A stretch of DNA of 64,000 bases, taken from positions 17,273 through 81,272 of IMG/VR virus record IMGVR_UViG_3300021963_005223; one strand, written 5' to 3'. The translations under genes and the position numbers were made by a program. Below the pieces are notes generated by a model, which saw nothing but the letters and a program-made list of their open reading frames with translations, was not told where the DNA came from and did not search any database. Positions 3,328-63,160 of this stretch are shown piece by piece (position 1 is the stretch's first letter; each line of letters begins with the position of its first letter). Origin of the DNA: a virus.

Positions 3328-4095
3328 ATGGCTCGCACATCAGCTGCAAAGAAAGTGGTAGACATTCATTATGACGAGCGTGAAACAAAACCTACTGCCA
3401 ATAATCAGTTAAAGTTACGTTTAGATAATTTAAAAACTTTTCAACCACTTACTGATAATCAGAAATTATTTTTTGATGCATATAAAACTGGCGATTATTT
3501 TATAGCATTACACGGAGTAGCAGGTACTGGTAAAACTTTTATTGCTCTCTATAAAGCAATTGAAGAAGTTCTTGATAAATCAAATCCCTTCAATAAAATT
3601 ATTGTAGTTCGTTCTGCGGTTCAATCTCGAGAAATTGGTCATCTTCCAGGCGACGTTAACGAGAAGATGGATATTTACGAACAACCGTATCGTCAAATTT
3701 GTCATCAGTTGTTTGATCGTAAAGATGCATGGGATCGTTTAGAGGAACAGGGATATATTCAGTTTATTTCAACGTCTTTTATTCGTGGTATGTCTTTCGA
3801 TAATGCAATTATTATTGTTGATGAGATGCAAAACTTGACATATGAAGAAATTGATACAGTTATGACACGTGTTGGTCATATGTCTAAGATTATTTGGTGT
3901 GGTGACTATCGTCAGACTGATCTAAATAAACGAAAGAACGATGTTACTGGTATTTTGAAATTTTTTGATATTGCACAGCACATGAAATCATTTACACGCA
4001 TTGAGTTTACTGTAGATGATATCGTTCGTTCATCATTAGTTAAAGATTATATTTTGGCTAAATTAAAGTACGAAGATCACGAGGACAAAAAATGA
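3328..4095 (+). CDS. phoH: PhoH-like P-loop ATPase
   Basis: 255 aa. Walker A is GVAGTGKT at residues 63-70 and Walker B is IIIVDEMQN at about 161-169, followed by a sensor-like WCGDYRQTD; together they are diagnostic of the PhoH core, which is related to the helicase domain of superfamily 1. PhoH is one of the commonest auxiliary genes of marine phages. In bacteria it is linked to phosphate starvation and RNA metabolism, but the phage function has not been settled. ATG 3328 follows CACAAGGATTTTTA; the end overlaps the endolysin start by 4 nt. No pho box was recognised upstream. Confidence 0.93.
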   Translation: MARTSAAKKVVDIHYDERETKPTANNQLKLRLDNLKTFQPLTDNQKLFFDAYKTGDYFIALHGVAGTGKTFIALYKAIEEVLDKSNPFNKIIVVRSAVQSREIGHLPGDVNEKMDIYEQPYRQICHQLFDRKDAWDRLEEQGYIQFISTSFIRGMSFDNAIIIVDEMQNLTYEEIDTVMTRVGHMSKIIWCGDYRQTDLNKRKNDVTGILKFFDIAQHMKSFTRIEFTVDDIVRSSLVKDYILAKLKYEDHEDKK

Positions 4096-5630: not shown

Positions 5631-6331
5631 AAGAAAAGATAACAATAGTTGTTCCATGTAAGAATGAAGAAAATTATATTTCTCACTTACTTGACCATCT
5701 AAAGAAACAAAACATTGGTAATACTCGCATTATTATTGCAGATGCTTCTACGGATAATACAAGAGAAGTTATTGCTAATAATAAAGGTAATTTGAATGTT
5801 GAGATTATCGATGGCGGACCAGTTTCTATTGCAAAAAATAATGGGGCGAAACTTGCAACTACACCATATATTCTATTCATTGATAGTGATGTAAGATTTT
5901 TTAAAGATACAGTTATATTTGACACTATTAAAGAATTAGAGTATAATAATCTTGACATGATTGGATTATATGCAAAATGTTACGATGGTGACATTAGAGC
6001 ACAAATTGGGTTTATGATATTTAATGCTATCAATGATATGATGAAACATTGGGTACCATTTGCGGTTGGTGCTTATATGTTAACACGAAGAGATAAATTT
6101 GAAGAGTATGGTGGATTCCCTGCTAAATATGGCACTAGCGAAGATTTCTTTTTATCAAAAAAGTATGATGTAAAGAAATTCAAATTAGTCAACCATTATT
6201 TTGGACAGGATAGTAGAAGGTTTCATAAAATGGGATACTTTGGCATGGCTTGGTATCTAATTAAAAACTTTTTTAATAGAAATAATGAAAATTATTGGAA
6301 TGAAATAGATTATACGAAATATTGGAAATGA
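5612..6331 (+). CDS. Family 2 glycosyltransferase
   Basis: 239 aa with a GT-A fold. The N-terminus TIVVPCKNEENYISHLLDHL (residues about 11-30) and IIIADASTDNT are the nucleotide-sugar site, and FIDSDVRF gives the DxD metal motif. The region after residue 130 (FMIFNAINDMMKHWVPFAVGAYMLTRR ... GTSEDFFLSKK) corresponds to the acceptor side, with ED as probable base. It would add a sugar to lipopolysaccharide, phage DNA or a virion protein; nothing in the sequence decides. Its neighbour is the LpxH-like gene, favouring an envelope target. The end overlaps the exonuclease gene by 4 nt. Confidence 0.88.
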   Translation: MSKIKLEEKITIVVPCKNEENYISHLLDHLKKQNIGNTRIIIADASTDNTREVIANNKGNLNVEIIDGGPVSIAKNNGAKLATTPYILFIDSDVRFFKDTVIFDTIKELEYNNLDMIGLYAKCYDGDIRAQIGFMIFNAINDMMKHWVPFAVGAYMLTRRDKFEEYGGFPAKYGTSEDFFLSKKYDVKKFKLVNHYFGQDSRRFHKMGYFGMAWYLIKNFFNRNNENYWNEIDYTKYWK

Positions 6332-6981
6332 AAACATTTATACATCATGAATTTCCCAAACTTGAACGTGATACAAAACCCGATGGTACGAGAGTATATA
6401 AAACACCATCGGGTCGAGCCTATCCCTCCGTCACCACAGTTACGGGACTGCACTCAAAACAATCAATCATGGAGTGGAGAAAGAAAGTCGGAGAAGAAGC
6501 AGCAAACAAAATCTCCAACAGAGCAGCCACTCGAGGAACAAGAATACATACCCTCTGCGAATCCTATTTGCGTGGAGAGTCTACTGAACCAGATATATTC
6601 GATCAAGAAATATATAAAGGGTTAGTTCCGTATCTCGATAAAATAAATAACATACATGCATTAGAAGATCCACTTTATTCTGACCATTTAGAAGTTGCAG
6701 GAACAGTTGATTGTATTGCAGAATATGATGGTAAACTTGCAGTTATAGATTTTAAAACTTCTTCGAAAGTTAAACAGCGTGACTGGATTACTGGTTATTT
6801 TATGCAAACATCTGCGTATGCTGTTGCATTCGAAGAGAGAACTGGGATACCAGTTGGACGTATGGTTATTATAATGGGTGTTGATGACCACGAACCACTT
6901 ATTTTTGAAGAAAAGAGAGATGATTGGATCGGCGAGTTTGTAAAATTGCGACAAGAATACAAACAAATTAAAAATATTTGA
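6328..6981 (+). CDS. PD-(D/E)XK family exonuclease
   Basis: Start chosen at ATG 6328, which overlaps the preceding TGA (ATGA), rather than the TTG six bases earlier. About 217 aa. The nuclease core is visible: HLEVAGTVDCIAEYDGKLAVIDFKTSSK gives the Asp of motif II (D in GTVD) and the D-x-K of motif III, with a further QTSAYAVAFEE helix (motif IV, Q-x-x-x-Y). This is the Cas4/RecB-like/MGME1-like nuclease type found in T4-like marine phages as 'exonuclease', acting on DNA in recombination or host DNA turnover. A perfect 10-bp inverted repeat lies in its first 90 bases (6378-6414). Confidence 0.85.
   Translation: MKTFIHHEFPKLERDTKPDGTRVYKTPSGRAYPSVTTVTGLHSKQSIMEWRKKVGEEAANKISNRAATRGTRIHTLCESYLRGESTEPDIFDQEIYKGLVPYLDKINNIHALEDPLYSDHLEVAGTVDCIAEYDGKLAVIDFKTSSKVKQRDWITGYFMQTSAYAVAFEERTGIPVGRMVIIMGVDDHEPLIFEEKRDDWIGEFVKLRQEYKQIKNI
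6378..6414. repeat. Perfect 10-bp inverted repeat inside the exonuclease gene
   Basis: ACCCGATGGT (6378-6387) and ACCATCGGGT (6405-6414) are perfect complements around a 17-base AT-rich spacer. In RNA it would form a stable GC-rich hairpin about 50 nt into the coding sequence. No T-tract follows. Confidence 0.8.
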
Positions 6982-7006
6982 CAAATATGAGAAAGTAGGG
7001 TATAAT
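6978..7006 (+). promoter_or_regulatory. Consensus sigma70-type promoter, probably for the tmRNA
   Basis: TTGACA (6978-6983), 17-bp spacer, TATAAT (7001-7006): a perfect match to the bacterial housekeeping consensus. Transcription would begin near 7013, downstream of the ATG at 7005, so this promoter cannot make a complete mRNA for that small gene and most likely drives the tmRNA gene that follows. Confidence 0.85.
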
Positions 7007-7157
7007 GTTATTAAATGCTGAAATCGCACCTAATATAATTATATTAGAAGAACGTAAACTTCCTGAAGGTTGGAAAGAAGGAGATATGTTTAAAGTTATT
7101 ATTGGTGCGAATGGACAAGTTACACTAATCAAGTCAACGCAAGATGGTGTAATGTAA
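7005..7157 (+). CDS. Small protein with GWKEGD core (AbrB-fold-like), 50 aa
   Basis: The frame runs from ATG 7005 to TAA 7155-7157. The core LPEGWKEGDMFKVIIGANGQVTL parallels GWKEGDVLEWIDNKNGSWTL in the 561-740 protein, so the reading frame is coding rather than accidental. The ATG overlaps the -10 box of the strong promoter, so full-length protein requires read-through from the exonuclease gene. An internal in-frame ATG at 7086 has a strong site in front (GAAGGAGAT) and would give only 23 residues from the promoter transcript. Function unknown; probable small DNA-binding or antitoxin-like protein. Confidence 0.6.
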   Translation: MLLNAEIAPNIIILEERKLPEGWKEGDMFKVIIGANGQVTLIKSTQDGVM

Positions 7158-7159
7158 GA

Positions 7160-7502
7160 ATTGCTGTATGAAGCAATGAGAAAGGTGTTCTGGACGTGGG
7201 TTCGACTCCCACCACCTCCACCTGAACATATTCCGAACCGAGTTATCGGTAGCAAAGCGAAACGCTGAGTATGTTCAGGTGGGGGTGCCATGGTTTCGAC
7301 AGGGCAATGAGTAACAGAGTGGACAGCACGACACAGAGAGTCGTAAAAAGTAAAAAACGTAAACGCAAACGACGCACAGTTCGCATTAGCAGCCTAAACA
7401 CTGCTTAGGGTTTCGGTAGGTTTCCTCGTAACAGAATAACCTACCACGAATTAGTGAAGTCTTTGCTCATAATTGGCAACCGATATCCTTGATATCTTGT
7501 AC
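7160..7502 (+). ncRNA. ssrA: Circularly permuted two-piece tmRNA (ssrA)
   Basis: The acceptor piece comes first: T-arm GTGGG-ttcgact-CCCAC (7196-7212), then the acceptor 3' strand CACCTCC (7213-7219), discriminator A and CC at 7221-7222; the final A of CCA is not encoded. A removed loop (about 7223-7280) follows, with stem TGAACATA/TATGTTCA. The coding piece starts at GGGGGTG (7281-7287), pairing seven bases with CACCTCC, followed by the conserved GGTTTCGACAGGG. The tag ORF is 7365-7397: GCA resume codon, ANDAQFALAA, stop TAA. Just upstream GTCGTAAAAAGT resembles the E. coli segment before the tag, and downstream CTGCTTAG is also conserved. A hairpin GGTAGGTT/AACCTACC (7415-7445) follows. The 5' and 3' ends given are approximate. 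Confidence 0.93.
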
Positions 7503-7560: not shown

Positions 7561-7773
7561 ATGAAATCAATTATCGCATTAGTAATGTTGGCATTTGCAA
7601 CTGTTTCGTTTGCAGCTGAACCTGCAAAGAAGCCAGAAGCAAAGAAAGAAGAAACAAACTGCGTAACTAAGGACAAACAAGGTAAATGTCCTCCAGCACC
7701 TAAGTCTGAGAAACCTACTCCTAAGAAAGTAGAGAAGAAAGACGACAAGACAGCTGATGCAGCAAAAAAGTAA
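7561..7773 (+). CDS. Secreted Lys/Ala/Pro-rich small protein, 70 aa
   Basis: Residues 1-18 (MKSIIALVMLAFATVSFA) form a clear Sec signal peptide with cleavage expected at SFA|AEP. The mature 52 residues are lysine-, alanine- and proline-rich with two cysteines (NCVTKDKQGKCPP) that could make a disulphide in the periplasm. AAGGAACTATC precedes the ATG. Such peptides are common in proteobacterial genomes, so it may be host-derived; a role at the envelope during lysis or superinfection is conceivable but unsupported. It lies just after the tmRNA gene, which could supply its promoter by read-through. Confidence 0.8.
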   Translation: MKSIIALVMLAFATVSFAAEPAKKPEAKKEETNCVTKDKQGKCPPAPKSEKPTPKKVEKKDDKTADAAKK

Positions 7774-7856: not shown

Positions 7857-8126
7857 ATGAGTAATATGACCCCGTTCGAGATTCGCCTAGAACTTTTAAA
7901 AATGGCGAAAGACATGCTTAATGACGAATATTATGGTAAGCGTGAACAAATTAGCAACGACTGGCATGTAAAAGTCGACTCTGCTAAAATCAATGGTGGA
8001 ACTATTCCAGAACATCCTGGGTTTCCATCTTATCCAAGTGAAGCCGATATTATTGCGAAAGCAACTGCTCTCAATGGTTTCGTTTCAAACATCCCAGTAG
8101 ATACAAAGACTAAGAAGTCCACCTGA
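7857..8126 (+). CDS. Conserved T4-like phage protein, 89 aa
   Basis: ATG 7857 follows AAAGGAGTAAAAC, an optimal ribosome site. The sequence MTPFEIRLELLKMAKDMLNDEYY followed by FPSYPSEADIIAKATALNGFVS is a recognisable pattern of small proteins in T4-like marine phages: a helical N-terminus then a Pro/Tyr-rich linker and second helix. It has no signal peptide. I know of no function; abundance in related phages suggests a virion-assembly or late role, which fits the late-type box upstream. Confidence 0.75.
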   Translation: MSNMTPFEIRLELLKMAKDMLNDEYYGKREQISNDWHVKVDSAKINGGTIPEHPGFPSYPSEADIIAKATALNGFVSNIPVDTKTKKST

Positions 8127-8135
8127 TAGGGATTG

Positions 8136-8163
8136 GAGTGTGCAGTCACATGCACACTCTTTA
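8136..8163 (+). terminator. Rho-independent terminator-like hairpin
   Basis: GAGTGTGCA (8136-8144), loop GTCACA, TGCACACTC (8151-8159), then TTT. The nine-base-pair perfect stem between two genes fits a terminator, although the T-run is short. Confidence 0.65.
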
Positions 8164-8180
8164 ACTTACTAAGGAGATTT

Positions 8181-8681
8181 ATGAAATTAATCCGAGTAAC
8201 ATTCATTTCAATAGCAGTAATGATAGCTGTTACAGCAGCTGTTACGTTTTATGATAAGGGTTATACAATACTCGATATCAAATATGGTCAGTTGACCAGT
8301 GATGCCAGAAAACAGGTAGACTGTTTGGCTGAAAACATTTATTATGAAGCAGGATATGAGCCACGTGATGGCCAAGTTGCTGTTGCCATGGTCACATTAA
8401 ATCGTGTACAGGATCCAAGATTCCCAAAAGACATTTGCGGAGTTGTAAAACAAAAAACACAAAGTACTTGTCAGTTCTCTTGGTTTTGTGAGCCAAGAAA
8501 ATACATAAACCAAAATGTTTATAAAGATAATTTAGAAGTTGCGTTGTATGTATACGCAAACTATGAAAATTTGCCAGACAACACTAATGGCGCAAAGTTT
8601 TACCATGCCGACTACGTTAACCCTAAATGGAAGTTGGAGAAAACTACTAAAATCGGTAGACACATTTTTTACAGGGATTAA
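8181..8681 (+). CDS. SleB-like cell wall hydrolase with N-terminal signal anchor
   Basis: Start at ATG 8181, after AAGGAGATTT; an earlier in-frame ATG at 8133 lies in the terminator hairpin and is unlikely. 166 aa. Residues 7-24 form a hydrophobic anchor or signal. The domain then shows CLAENIYYEAGYEPRDGQVAVAMVTLNRV (catalytic Glu in NIYYEA), the hallmark of the SleB/CwlJ hydrolase family (PF07486), followed by FPKDICGVVKQK...CQFSWFC and GAKFYHADYV. It would cut the peptidoglycan glycan from the periplasmic side. This is the second stand-alone lytic enzyme in the window after the GH19 endolysin. Confidence 0.88.
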   Translation: MKLIRVTFISIAVMIAVTAAVTFYDKGYTILDIKYGQLTSDARKQVDCLAENIYYEAGYEPRDGQVAVAMVTLNRVQDPRFPKDICGVVKQKTQSTCQFSWFCEPRKYINQNVYKDNLEVALYVYANYENLPDNTNGAKFYHADYVNPKWKLEKTTKIGRHIFYRD

Positions 8682-8692
8682 AGGTGATTGAT

Positions 8693-9250
8693 ATGATGCA
8701 AAAATTAAATTTACAGGTAAAAGAAGAACATTCACGCCATTCGTTTTTCTTGCTGATGGAAGAAGTTACATTGGCAACTTGTAAACAAGCAGTTGAGTGG
8801 ATATTTGAAAATAATTTCCAAGAAGATCGTGCCGATTTATTGAACATGGTTATCACTTCTCCAGGTGGTGACTTGAATGCAGCTTTTGCATTAGTTGATA
8901 CTATGCGTGGTTCAGCTATCCCAATTAGAACAATCGGACTTGGTCAGATTGCTTCAGCTGGACTAATGATTTTTATTGCTGGTGAAAAAGGAAACCGAAT
9001 CCTTACACCAAATACATCTATTCTTTCGCATCAATATTCGTGGGGTGCGTTTGGTAAAGAACATGAGTTATTTGCGACAGTGAAAGAATTTGATTTGACC
9101 ACGAAACGTATGATTAGTCATTATAAAAAATGTACTGGATTATCTGAGAAAAAGATTCGTGAGGTTCTATTACCACCACAAGATATGTGGTTATCAGCAA
9201 CCGAAGCAAAAGAGTTAGGATTGTGCGATGCAGTTAAAGACATTAATTAA
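8693..9250 (+). CDS. clpP: ClpP-like serine protease
   Basis: Start set at ATG 8693, with AAGGTG six bases ahead; a GTG at 8684 in the same frame would place the ribosome site inside the gene. About 185 aa, the length of bacterial ClpP. Catalytic Ser is in GQIASAGLMIFIAGEKGNR, catalytic His in LTPNTSILSHQYSWG, and the Asp is probably in the DLTTKRMI helix region; the N-terminal MVITSPGGDLNAAFALVDTMR holds the oxyanion-side GG. ClpP forms a barrel protease that degrades tagged or unfolded proteins with ClpX/ClpA; phage copies may replace host ClpP or process virion proteins. It lies about 1.2 kb after the tmRNA, whose tag ends in the ClpX-type LAA. Confidence 0.9.
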   Translation: MMQKLNLQVKEEHSRHSFFLLMEEVTLATCKQAVEWIFENNFQEDRADLLNMVITSPGGDLNAAFALVDTMRGSAIPIRTIGLGQIASAGLMIFIAGEKGNRILTPNTSILSHQYSWGAFGKEHELFATVKEFDLTTKRMISHYKKCTGLSEKKIREVLLPPQDMWLSATEAKELGLCDAVKDIN

Positions 9251-16218: not shown

Positions 16219-16226
16219 TATTTATT
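16219..16226 (-). promoter_or_regulatory. Late-type promoter box AATAAATA (minus strand)
   Basis: Minus-strand GAGAATAAATAAAGG overlaps the stop region of the gp54 gene; the box ends ten bases before the gp16 ATG. It resembles the T4 late consensus TATAAATA with one mismatch. Confidence 0.5.
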
Positions 16227-16923
16227 CTCTACCACTAAAGTTCATAGTGTTGTAATCTTGTTGAAATCCAGTAAAGTTAGAAGCATATTGTTCTGGTACA
16301 CTTGCATAGCTAGACAGTTCTCTATCATTAAGTGTTGGTAGTTTTGTCCAACGTGCCCAAGGAGATTCTTTAGTTTCCATCGGAGCAGAAAACGATCTAG
16401 AAGTCCAATATTTGTAATTCATAGAAATTTGTAATTTCATAACTTCTTTTTGGTCATATCCAACTTGAATCTGTCCAACATTTTTTGGATAGCATTCATT
16501 CATTTCAATTTCGTAGCGTTTTCTATTTTTAGTGTCTTCTACTTCAATTTTAATTTCTGATGTATAGTCATCATAATAGTTAAAATTTCTAGAAAATGGA
16601 TCTTGAATTGACTCCATCCACTGATCAAAAAACTTTTTAACTTCCATGTTGTTATCTACATAAAAAGATAAATTGGCATTATCAAACATTTTTTCGTTTG
16701 GTGCTTCACGAACTTCACCATGAATTCTAATCTGATTGGTTGCCATAGTTACACCTGGGATAGTTATATCAGAACAGAATAAAAGAATTTTTCTCATGTT
16801 TGGTGCATACGACATACTCTTAGGGACTCTAATTGATACAGTATATCTTGATGTTCTCATCAACCCTTCGGTTTTAACCAGAGAGATAAAATTCTTTAAA
16901 ACTCCATTTTTTGGTTCAGACAT
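16222..16923 (-). CDS. 54: gp54-like baseplate-tail tube initiator
   Basis: 233 aa. The sequence has a tube-protein (gp19-like) character: MSEPKNGVLKNFISLVKTEGLMRTSRYTVSIRVP, CSDITIPGVTMATNQI, FYVDNNMEVKKFFDQWMESIQDP and YPKNVGQIQVGYDQKEVMKLQISMNYKYW. This is the pattern of T4 gp54, which sits on gp48 and starts tail tube polymerisation. The protein is shorter than T4 gp54 (320 aa), like its marine phage relatives. Located between the 199-aa conserved gene and gp16; it starts three bases after the upstream stop. Confidence 0.82.
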   Translation of the reverse strand: MSEPKNGVLKNFISLVKTEGLMRTSRYTVSIRVPKSMSYAPNMRKILLFCSDITIPGVTMATNQIRIHGEVREAPNEKMFDNANLSFYVDNNMEVKKFFDQWMESIQDPFSRNFNYYDDYTSEIKIEVEDTKNRKRYEIEMNECYPKNVGQIQVGYDQKEVMKLQISMNYKYWTSRSFSAPMETKESPWARWTKLPTLNDRELSSYASVPEQYASNFTGFQQDYNTMNFSGRE

Positions 16924-16926
16924 TTT

Positions 16927-17526
16927 TTAACCCATTTTTCTAAGTGAATCTGCCCAGATTGCATCTTTAGATGAACCCACAAATCTTTCAACTGGAAGCA
17001 ACATTGCAGTAGCCCAATCATTTGCAGGAATTTCCCTAAAGGGTGATCTTACATGATTTAACAGATAATGTTTAACGCATGGAATCGCTCCATTATAACG
17101 AGATACTCCATCTATAAGTGCCCAAGAATATTTGATTCTTGTCGTTTCGTTCATTTTATCGTTACTCTTAAAAATCATTAAACGATCTAGTAAACGAACA
17201 CGTAATTGGTATGGTAAATAATGCATATTTAAACCCAAGAATCCACCTTCTACTTTTCTAAACGGGAAAACTAGAGGGAACCTATCATAATACGGTAGAG
17301 TATCTTTTAGTTTTGGGTCATAAAAATACATATAAAGTTTCCCAGGAGTGATACTGGTCTTTAGTTGTGTCGTATCGCCCTGTAATACTTTAGGTGGTGT
17401 TATTCTCTGTTTGTTTAACAGTAGAACTTGTTGTTCAAACCAGCCACGAGACTTTTTAGCTGCAGTCTTGAGGTCGTATTGGTTTTTCTCAAATACGTCT
17501 TGTAATGTTGTTGGATTTTTAGCCAT
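16927..17526 (-). CDS. Conserved T4-like phage protein between gp4 and gp54, 199 aa
   Basis: The sequence is strongly patterned: TLQDVFEKNQYDLKTAAKKSRGWFEQQVLLLNKQRITP, then GKLYMYFYDPKLKDTLPYYDRFPLVFPF and GGFLGLNMHYLPYQLRVRLLDRLM, ending PVERFVGSSKDAIWADSLRKMG. I recognise this as a protein conserved in T4-like marine phages and usually placed next to gp4; it is often listed as structural. Function is not established. A CTAAATA box lies exactly five bases before its ATG. Confidence 0.8.
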   Translation of the reverse strand: MAKNPTTLQDVFEKNQYDLKTAAKKSRGWFEQQVLLLNKQRITPPKVLQGDTTQLKTSITPGKLYMYFYDPKLKDTLPYYDRFPLVFPFRKVEGGFLGLNMHYLPYQLRVRLLDRLMIFKSNDKMNETTRIKYSWALIDGVSRYNGAIPCVKHYLLNHVRSPFREIPANDWATAMLLPVERFVGSSKDAIWADSLRKMG

Positions 17527-62566: not shown

Positions 62567-63160
62567 ATGGCAAATATTAGCGACTTCAAAGCGCAAATGA
62601 TTGGTGGCGGTGCTCGCCCTAATCAATTCCGTGTTGAATTGGTCTTCCCAACTTACGTACCACTAGGTGTCGTAGCTGGTCAACGTGCTCAGTTCTTATG
62701 TAAGTCTGCTCAGTTACCAGCGTCCACTATCGAGAACATTCAAGTTCTTTATAAAGGTCGCCAAGTAAACTTTGCAGGTGAACGTAATTTCGCACCTTGG
62801 ACTGTATCGATTTACAATGATACTACTTTCAATATCCGTAATGCTATGGAACAATGGCAATCTGGTATTCAAAGTTACAGTTCAACTGATGGTAGAACAA
62901 ACCCACGTGACTATCAAGTAGATTTACAAGTTCATCAATTAGATCGTTCTGGCGCAATCATCAAGAGCTATAAGTTCGTTGATGCATTCCCAACAGTTAT
63001 TGGTCCAATCGCATTAGATTTTGACCAACAAAATCAGATCGAACAATTTGATGTTGAGTTCCAATTCAATTACTTTACTTCTAATGCAACTGAGGGTGGT
63101 GGAATCAATCTTAATGTTTCCGTTGATACACCAATCGGTAGTTTCCCACTACCAATTTAA
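62567..63160 (+). CDS. 19: gp19-like tail tube protein
   Basis: 197 aa (T4 163). ANISDFKAQMIGGGARPNQFRVELVFPTYV, FLCKSAQLPASTIENIQVLYKGRQVNFAGERNFAPWTVSIYNDTTFNIRNAMEQWQSGI and DAFPTVIGPIALDFDQQNQIEQFDVEFQFNYF are the standard gp19 pattern. It polymerises inside the sheath around the tape measure. Slightly longer C-terminus than T4. Strong ribosome site and own late box. Confidence 0.94.
   Translation: MANISDFKAQMIGGGARPNQFRVELVFPTYVPLGVVAGQRAQFLCKSAQLPASTIENIQVLYKGRQVNFAGERNFAPWTVSIYNDTTFNIRNAMEQWQSGIQSYSSTDGRTNPRDYQVDLQVHQLDRSGAIIKSYKFVDAFPTVIGPIALDFDQQNQIEQFDVEFQFNYFTSNATEGGGINLNVSVDTPIGSFPLPI

Follow-up and report, generated by a model that had tools for sequence, protein, structure and literature searches.

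Two-piece tmRNAs are already known as a kind in phages, the Methylophilales phage Melnitz and the Pelagibacter phage Mosig being the examples closest to the present case. Buchholz 2022 (PMC9004378) gives 53 two-piece forms among 133 unique phage tmRNA structures, and presents Melnitz and Mosig as T4-like phages with a permuted tmRNA, as found here. Both tmRNAs are described there as alpha-type with a glutamine riboswitch, whereas the gene reported here fits the beta model best. In Melnitz, PhoH, a PD-(D/E)XK nuclease and SsrA follow in the same order as in the present locus, and in Mosig the nuclease also lies upstream of SsrA. The T4-like Pseudomonas phage pf16 encodes SspB, a partner of the ssrA/ClpXP pathway; unlike for the phage studied here, its authors found no tmRNA (PMC5587285).

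The present gene is located in a stretch of 64,000 nucleotides (positions 17,273 to 81,272 of IMG/VR virus record IMGVR_UViG_3300021963_005223), hereafter called the window. An initial annotation made from the sequence had assigned it to a T4-like phage. This assignment was supported by PHROG matches to SSB (gp32-like), baseplate hub and wedge, terminase, sheath and tube proteins. The best phage match of the hub protein was found in Synechococcus phage BUCT-ZZ01 (32%). Two tail-tube-like proteins (PHROG 45) are encoded on opposite strands of one record, at 16222-16923 (-) and 62567-63160 (+).

Anatomy and type of the tmRNA gene

The only RNA gene that ARAGORN identified in the window is a permuted tmRNA (7131-7488, +), with its coding part at 7365-7397 and the same tag, ANDAQFALAA, as read in the initial annotation. 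The Rfam model RF01850 (beta_tmRNA) matched at 7111-7469 over its full length (1-331 of 331) with 133.2 bits against a threshold of 84, and RF04321 (tmRNA_permuted) matched at 7162-7397 with 128.9 bits against a gathering threshold of 47. The circularly permuted two-piece organisation proposed initially was thus borne out by ARAGORN and by an end-to-end match, and the covariance-model search that had been recommended showed that the pieces do fold. A complete permuted (two-piece) tmRNA gene is present at 7162-7469 (+). The extent first given, 7160-7502, was close to this, although the position of the 3' end is only approximate. Among three older models, the alpha tmRNA model reached 50.3 bits in the window, barely above its cut-off of 50, and the cyano model stayed below its cut-off of 70 with 47.8 bits; the gene is beta-type in the sense that the beta model scored best of these three. 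RF01850 was also the top member of its clan in 18 of 18 scanned relatives. No riboswitch reached the Rfam threshold in the window.

Table 1. Features of the tmRNA locus (window coordinates)
Feature	Position	Strand	Description	Basis
PhoH	3328-4095		upstream of tmRNA	
PD-(D/E)XK exonuclease	6322-6981	+	upstream neighbour, also in Mosig and Melnitz	PHROG 298
Sigma70-type promoter	6978-7006	+	TTGACA-N17-TATAAT, 12 of 12; -10 overlaps orf50 ATG	
orf50	7005-7157	+	small coding gene directly upstream of tmRNA	
Acceptor (tRNA-like 3') piece	7162-7222	+	helix-2 strands, T arm, acceptor 3' strand, discriminator, CC	sequence, ARAGORN, Rfam, conservation
Helix-2 outer strand	7162-7166	+	TGCTG, pairs with CAGCA 7324-7328	read from sequence
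Helix pairing	7186-7192	+	TGTTCTG, with CAGGGCA 7300-7306	read from sequence
T stem	7196-7200/7208-7212	+	loop TTCGACT	read from sequence
Acceptor 3' strand	7213-7219	+	CACCTCC	read from sequence
Discriminator and CC	7220; 7221-7222	+	A, then CC; next base T	read from sequence
Excised spacer	7223-7280	+	58 nt; acceptor-helix extension with two small hairpins, without ORF	
Coding piece	7281-7469	+	acceptor 5' strand, G3-U70, D-like loop GGTTTCGAC, helix 2, tag frame, 3' hairpin	
Acceptor 5' strand	7281-7287	+	GGGGGTG; G1 at 7281	
Tag frame	7365-7397	+	ANDAQFALAA + TAA; resume codon GCA 7365, stop TAA 7395-7397	
3' hairpin after tag frame	7415-7445	+	GGTAGGTT 7415-7422 / AACCTACC 7438-7445	
70-aa protein	7561-7773	+	signal-peptide-like start	by eye
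89-aa protein	7857-8126	+	part of conserved block	
Cell wall hydrolase	8133-8681	+	Hydrolase_2	Pfam 3.2e-24
ClpP-like serine protease	8684-9250	+	PF00574	Pfam 1.5e-30

The acceptor piece precedes the coding piece, and the acceptor strands pair across the permutation. The acceptor helix continues unbroken into the spacer, and the resulting hairpin (7213-7289) was predicted at -44.8 kcal/mol (z = -8.96), none of 200 dinucleotide shuffles being equally good. The third pair of the acceptor is G3-U70, the alanine identity pair. The tag frame of the window has a resume codon, a stop and an end of the LAA type. As stated in the initial annotation, CCA lacks its terminal A in the DNA. The idea that this is a phage oddity was rejected: of 51 permuted bacterial genes of the beta type, 23 likewise lack the A, compared with 7 of 69 phage genes.

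Conservation among related phages and origin

Viral contigs were gathered in four ways, by the acceptor pattern, the tag, the ClpP protein and a small ORF family. Stem statistics were confined to the latter three sets, since these had not been selected by the acceptor. Genes were retained when ARAGORN gave a tag containing ND or NE with a start inside the locus, the others being dropped; this resulted in 76 distinct genes, of which 72 remained after a 97% filter. Together with the window gene and four genes added by hand, 77 genes were submitted to the acceptor script, which tests as many as five offsets when locating the 5' strand and retains the best one. It placed 69 genes and left eight unplaced and uncounted (L147, L154, L354, L388, L301 and L366-L368).

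The seven-base acceptor pairing pointed out initially, with 7 of 7 pairs in the window, is kept in the relatives: all seven pairs form in 69 of 69 placed phage genes, window included, and G3-U70 is invariant in the same set. Changes on both sides of pairs 4-6 were found in 11 of these genes and are compensatory only (GGGGATG/CATCTCC, n = 9; GGGGCAG/CTGCTCC, n = 1; GGGCCAG/CTGGTCC, n = 1). The latter two were detected by the script, in L332 and L374, where the acceptor is rebuilt by double changes with G3-U70 kept. By eye, an acceptor changed to GGGCCTG/CAGGTCC was seen in L366-L368, again with G3-U70.

The T stem is paired in 68 of 68 genes and P2 in 65 of 68, a count which omits L147, L150, L154, L354 and L388; in both, pairing survives double changes. 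The 3' hairpin forms with 8 of 8 pairs in 57 of 59 genes, with compensatory changes, while nine more genes have no anchor. Many genes of the stem set are related, and they are therefore not independent events. The tag ends in LAA in 71 of 72 genes (exception: L388), 37 of the 72 having been retrieved through the tag itself. CTGCTTAG is kept in most of the phage group, but not in four aligned bacterial genes. T-arm and hairpin types appear shuffled among relatives. The compensatory changes in the stems argue for a long retention of the phage tmRNA.

With respect to origin, comparison with host ssrA had been proposed at the outset. Among 399 bacterial genomes belonging to the same order as the beta-proteobacterial genome G002, 85 gave a match, only in short blocks and at best over about 40 nt at 90%; a recent host capture was rejected on these grounds. 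The tag pattern with its TAA stop was found in 65 viral stretches and gave no exact match in the bacterial genome contigs scanned. That scan covered the TAA stop only, and another pattern does recover ssrA genes from the same collection. The capture by a phage suggested in the initial annotation agrees with the beta model being the best one, but with no near host copy found in the 399 genomes and the tag with its TAA stop absent from the scanned collection, any capture must be old. A recent capture from the host, or a functionless relic such as the product of imprecise excision or the remnant of an attachment site, could appeal to the same fit to a beta bacterial model. It is extremely improbable, as the gene is complete, its stems carry compensatory changes, no near host copy was found, and the position downstream of the nuclease is common to the marine phages Mosig and Melnitz. 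The data rather fit an old acquisition followed by exchange between viruses. The latter is proposed because the core of the window spacer (7223-7280) recurs identically in L151:6239-6597, whose T arm and coding piece differ from those of the window.

Expression, neighbourhood and proposed function

The sigma70-type promoter of the window ends 124 nt before the called tmRNA start. Among the 69 relatives with enough upstream DNA, some of them near-identical, a promoter with at least 10 of 12 positions within 160 nt was found in 34, compared with 206 of 3088 control stretches from the same loci; a 12 of 12 promoter was found in 7 of 69 against 18 of 3106. The late-promoter octamer TATAAATA was not found in the 600 bases upstream of the window gene. 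At the level of sequence, a perfect sigma70 promoter without the octamer upstream suggests that the tmRNA is transcribed early by the host RNA polymerase. In Buchholz 2022, the Melnitz tmRNA is also placed behind a proposed early promoter (PMC9004378). The initial annotation had envisaged rescue of ribosomes late in infection. The cassette does contain lysis-type genes as well, which is nothing specific, and both the missing octamer and the enrichment of sigma70-like promoters ahead of the tmRNA genes of relatives speak against this timing, which is regarded as unlikely.

The conserved orf50 begins within this promoter, its ATG overlapping the -10 box (TATAATG, 7000-7010). Transcripts initiated here would therefore lack this start codon and cannot express orf50 from it. 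Neither Pfam nor PHROG assigned orf50 to a family. The possibility that orf50 is an artefact of the promoter was rejected, since its differences by codon position from three relatives (6/1/12, 6/1/13 and 3/1/10) follow a coding pattern.

The conserved cassette ends in a phage ClpP protease, encoded 1.2 kb downstream of the tmRNA on the same strand. Its residues S91, H116 and D182 align with Ser, His and Asp of a solved ClpP (8cj4), which we take to be the catalytic residues. A scan with the window ClpP gave 80 loci, 47 of them with at least 3 kb of upstream DNA and 33 with less. A tmRNA was present in all 47, in 46 according to ARAGORN and in L301 by inspection, where acceptor and tag sequences are visible by eye; with 2 kb upstream, ARAGORN found it in 52 of 57 ClpP loci. 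The same 47 loci contain the cell wall hydrolase in 47 cases, the 89-aa protein in 42 and the exonuclease in 40. As the whole block is conserved, the linkage of tmRNA and ClpP alone is no proof of joint function, and as the scan retrieved close relatives only (78-99% identity), the 47 of 47 represent one clade. Outside this clade, tmRNA and ClpP are both present in BUCT-ZZ01 and Phosso, while Mosig and Melnitz have a tmRNA but no ClpP match, in contrast to the linked gene of the window. In eight large related records the tmRNA was found in 8 of 8, within a scan in which 10 of 10 records matched, and ClpP in 7 of 8, G405 having the tmRNA without ClpP. ClpP is not required for carrying a tmRNA.

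The gene very probably encodes a functional beta-type two-piece tmRNA of the phage, which would be processed by the host and would add ANDAQFALAA with the help of host SmpB. Host RNA polymerase would transcribe it from the sigma70-type promoter, presumably for early action; host tRNA-processing enzymes would remove the 58-nt spacer hairpin, the host CCA-adding enzyme would supply the missing A of the acceptor piece, and host alanyl-tRNA synthetase would charge it via G3-U70. The tmRNA could then enter ribosomes stalled on broken messages together with SmpB and append the tag, with the likely benefit that ribosomes stay in circulation while host mRNA is destroyed. The use of host SmpB is presumed because no PF01668 match was found in the window's 81,272-base record, possibly a fragment, nor in any of eight related records (0/8).

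The same lack of a phage SmpB would suit an inhibitory decoy, a phage RNA titrating host SmpB. PMC4131195 and PMC11915505 offer a precedent in phage DS6A, whose tRNA-like-only RNA has been proposed to act in this way. However, a decoy would have no need of a tag frame, stop, helix 2 and 3' hairpin, all of which are complete here and conserved; this explanation is very unlikely.

An extension of the preferred reading, a functional tmRNA working with host SmpB, rather than an opposing one would be that tagged chains of host or phage are destroyed by host ClpX or ClpA docked on the phage ClpP, and their amino acids recycled. Linkage does no more than suggest that tagged chains are degraded by the phage ClpP. 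The proximity and common orientation of the two genes, the conserved triad residues, the tmRNA in every ClpP locus with at least 3 kb upstream, the LAA end of nearly all tags and the occurrence of the two nearest isolate-phage ClpPs (BUCT-ZZ01 and Phosso) in genomes with a permuted tmRNA are in favour of it. Nevertheless, the linkage lies within one clade and is common to other neighbours such as the cell wall hydrolase, a tmRNA without ClpP exists, and host ClpP could serve equally; joint tagging and degradation is considered possible but somewhat doubtful.

A widespread and apparently uncultured T4-like group has thus long kept its own ribosome-rescue RNA. With a tag found here only in viral contigs, host-type promoters and a ClpP beside the gene, these phages may run their own trans-translation.

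Small protein genes in the excised spacer and comparison with known systems

In relatives of the window gene, the permutation has probably been put to use, the excised spacer serving to accommodate small protein genes; with the linked ClpP included, the locus would be a phage-run rescue cassette with a cargo slot, of which the window, with a spacer (7223-7280) containing no ORF but only a stem, would be the empty form. Spacers could be read in 151 phage genes of all tag types (83 distinct), and the long ones tend to contain an open frame. On the ClpP-selected set, the spacer finder placed 55 of 80 loci, giving 35 distinct spacers. A single ORF fills eight of these 35, from a little downstream of the discriminator to a stop beside G1, compared with 124 of 6300 shuffled spacers. 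Of the spacers of at least 140 nt, eight of nine are filled; the ninth (L323) has an ORF whose homologues immediately precede the tmRNA in L341 and L111. Most filled spacers have a ribosome-binding-like AAGGA right after CCA, with an ATG about 14 nt after the discriminator and a TGA stop that lies one base ahead of G1, where the coding piece begins. With this layout, one transcript could yield both the two-piece tmRNA and a small mRNA. Spacer-filling genes were found in L063, L152, L321, L330, L331, L332, L335 and L358, and further ones in L362-L369, L371, L372, L377, L379, L419, L420, L423 and L425. Shorter spacers (<140 nt) also contain ORFs, of 26 aa in L139 and of 38 and 35 aa in L123 and L128, the latter two running into the coding piece.

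The small protein genes of three spacer families look to be under purifying selection: synonymous change far exceeds non-synonymous change, and homologues also occur outside any spacer. In the 41-aa membrane-type family, 15.5 of 21.8 synonymous and 12.5 of 101.2 non-synonymous sites are changed in the pair L063/L332. This family comprises 30 loci, nine of which pass a strict test for lying within a tmRNA spacer, with three more (L366-L368) in genes with the acceptor CAGGTCC/GGGCCTG, several directly upstream of the tmRNA (e.g. L370, L376, L378, L380, L383, L384 and L387) and the rest elsewhere. A 52-aa family of seven loci lies in the spacers of L419, L420, L423 and L425 and upstream of the tmRNA in L424; L419 and L424 differ from each other at 21.0 of 29.7 synonymous sites and at 14.0 of the 126.3 remaining sites. 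A 54-aa family has two loci, the spacer of L426 (contig of L330) and L427, which is without a nearby tmRNA motif, and 27.5 of 34.0 synonymous against 22.5 of 128.0 other sites differ. None of eight spacer proteins had a PHROG match below E = 0.01 (best 0.011), and the 54-aa protein had no match in phage records.

In L421 and L422, the 52-aa ORF (1001-1156) sits between apparently decayed halves of a tmRNA gene, and the nested gene may there outlive the RNA gene. In Melnitz (MZ577097.1, 46096-46224, in L401), the SsrA spacer holds an open frame that is unannotated, preceded by a GGAG site and identical in the four isolates. The jumbo Sinorhizobium phage Phosso (L396, 349596-350198), whose genome has two ClpP genes, carries a permuted tmRNA missed by ARAGORN; no convincing ORF was found in its spacer of about 400 nt.

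A literature search of titles and abstracts, with subscription papers mostly out of reach, returned nothing on a tmRNA-ClpP link or on spacer ORFs. As far as these searches reach, a beta-type phage member with a linked ClpP and spacer genes in its relatives is new, and protein genes nested in the excised part of a permuted RNA gene look like a new arrangement. The lake T4-like phage BUCT-ZZ01 (ON615601) also has a permuted tmRNA and a ClpP 51% identical to that of the window, but its tmRNA is unannotated in the stretch shown and has the tag ANDETFSMALAA instead of ANDAQFALAA, and its ClpP lies near PhoH, about 41 kb away from the tmRNA compared with 1.2 kb in the window. The beta-proteobacterial permuted tmRNA (RF01850) resembles the window gene in the full-length model match and in ACC without an encoded A, which is common on both sides. 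In contrast, the window gene scores 133 bits, under half of the 295-305 bits of three bacterial genes, its tag is ANDAQFALAA whereas most bacterial loci have ANDERFALAA, and its distance from discriminator to G1 is 60 nt compared with 7-46 nt in 46 bacterial genes.
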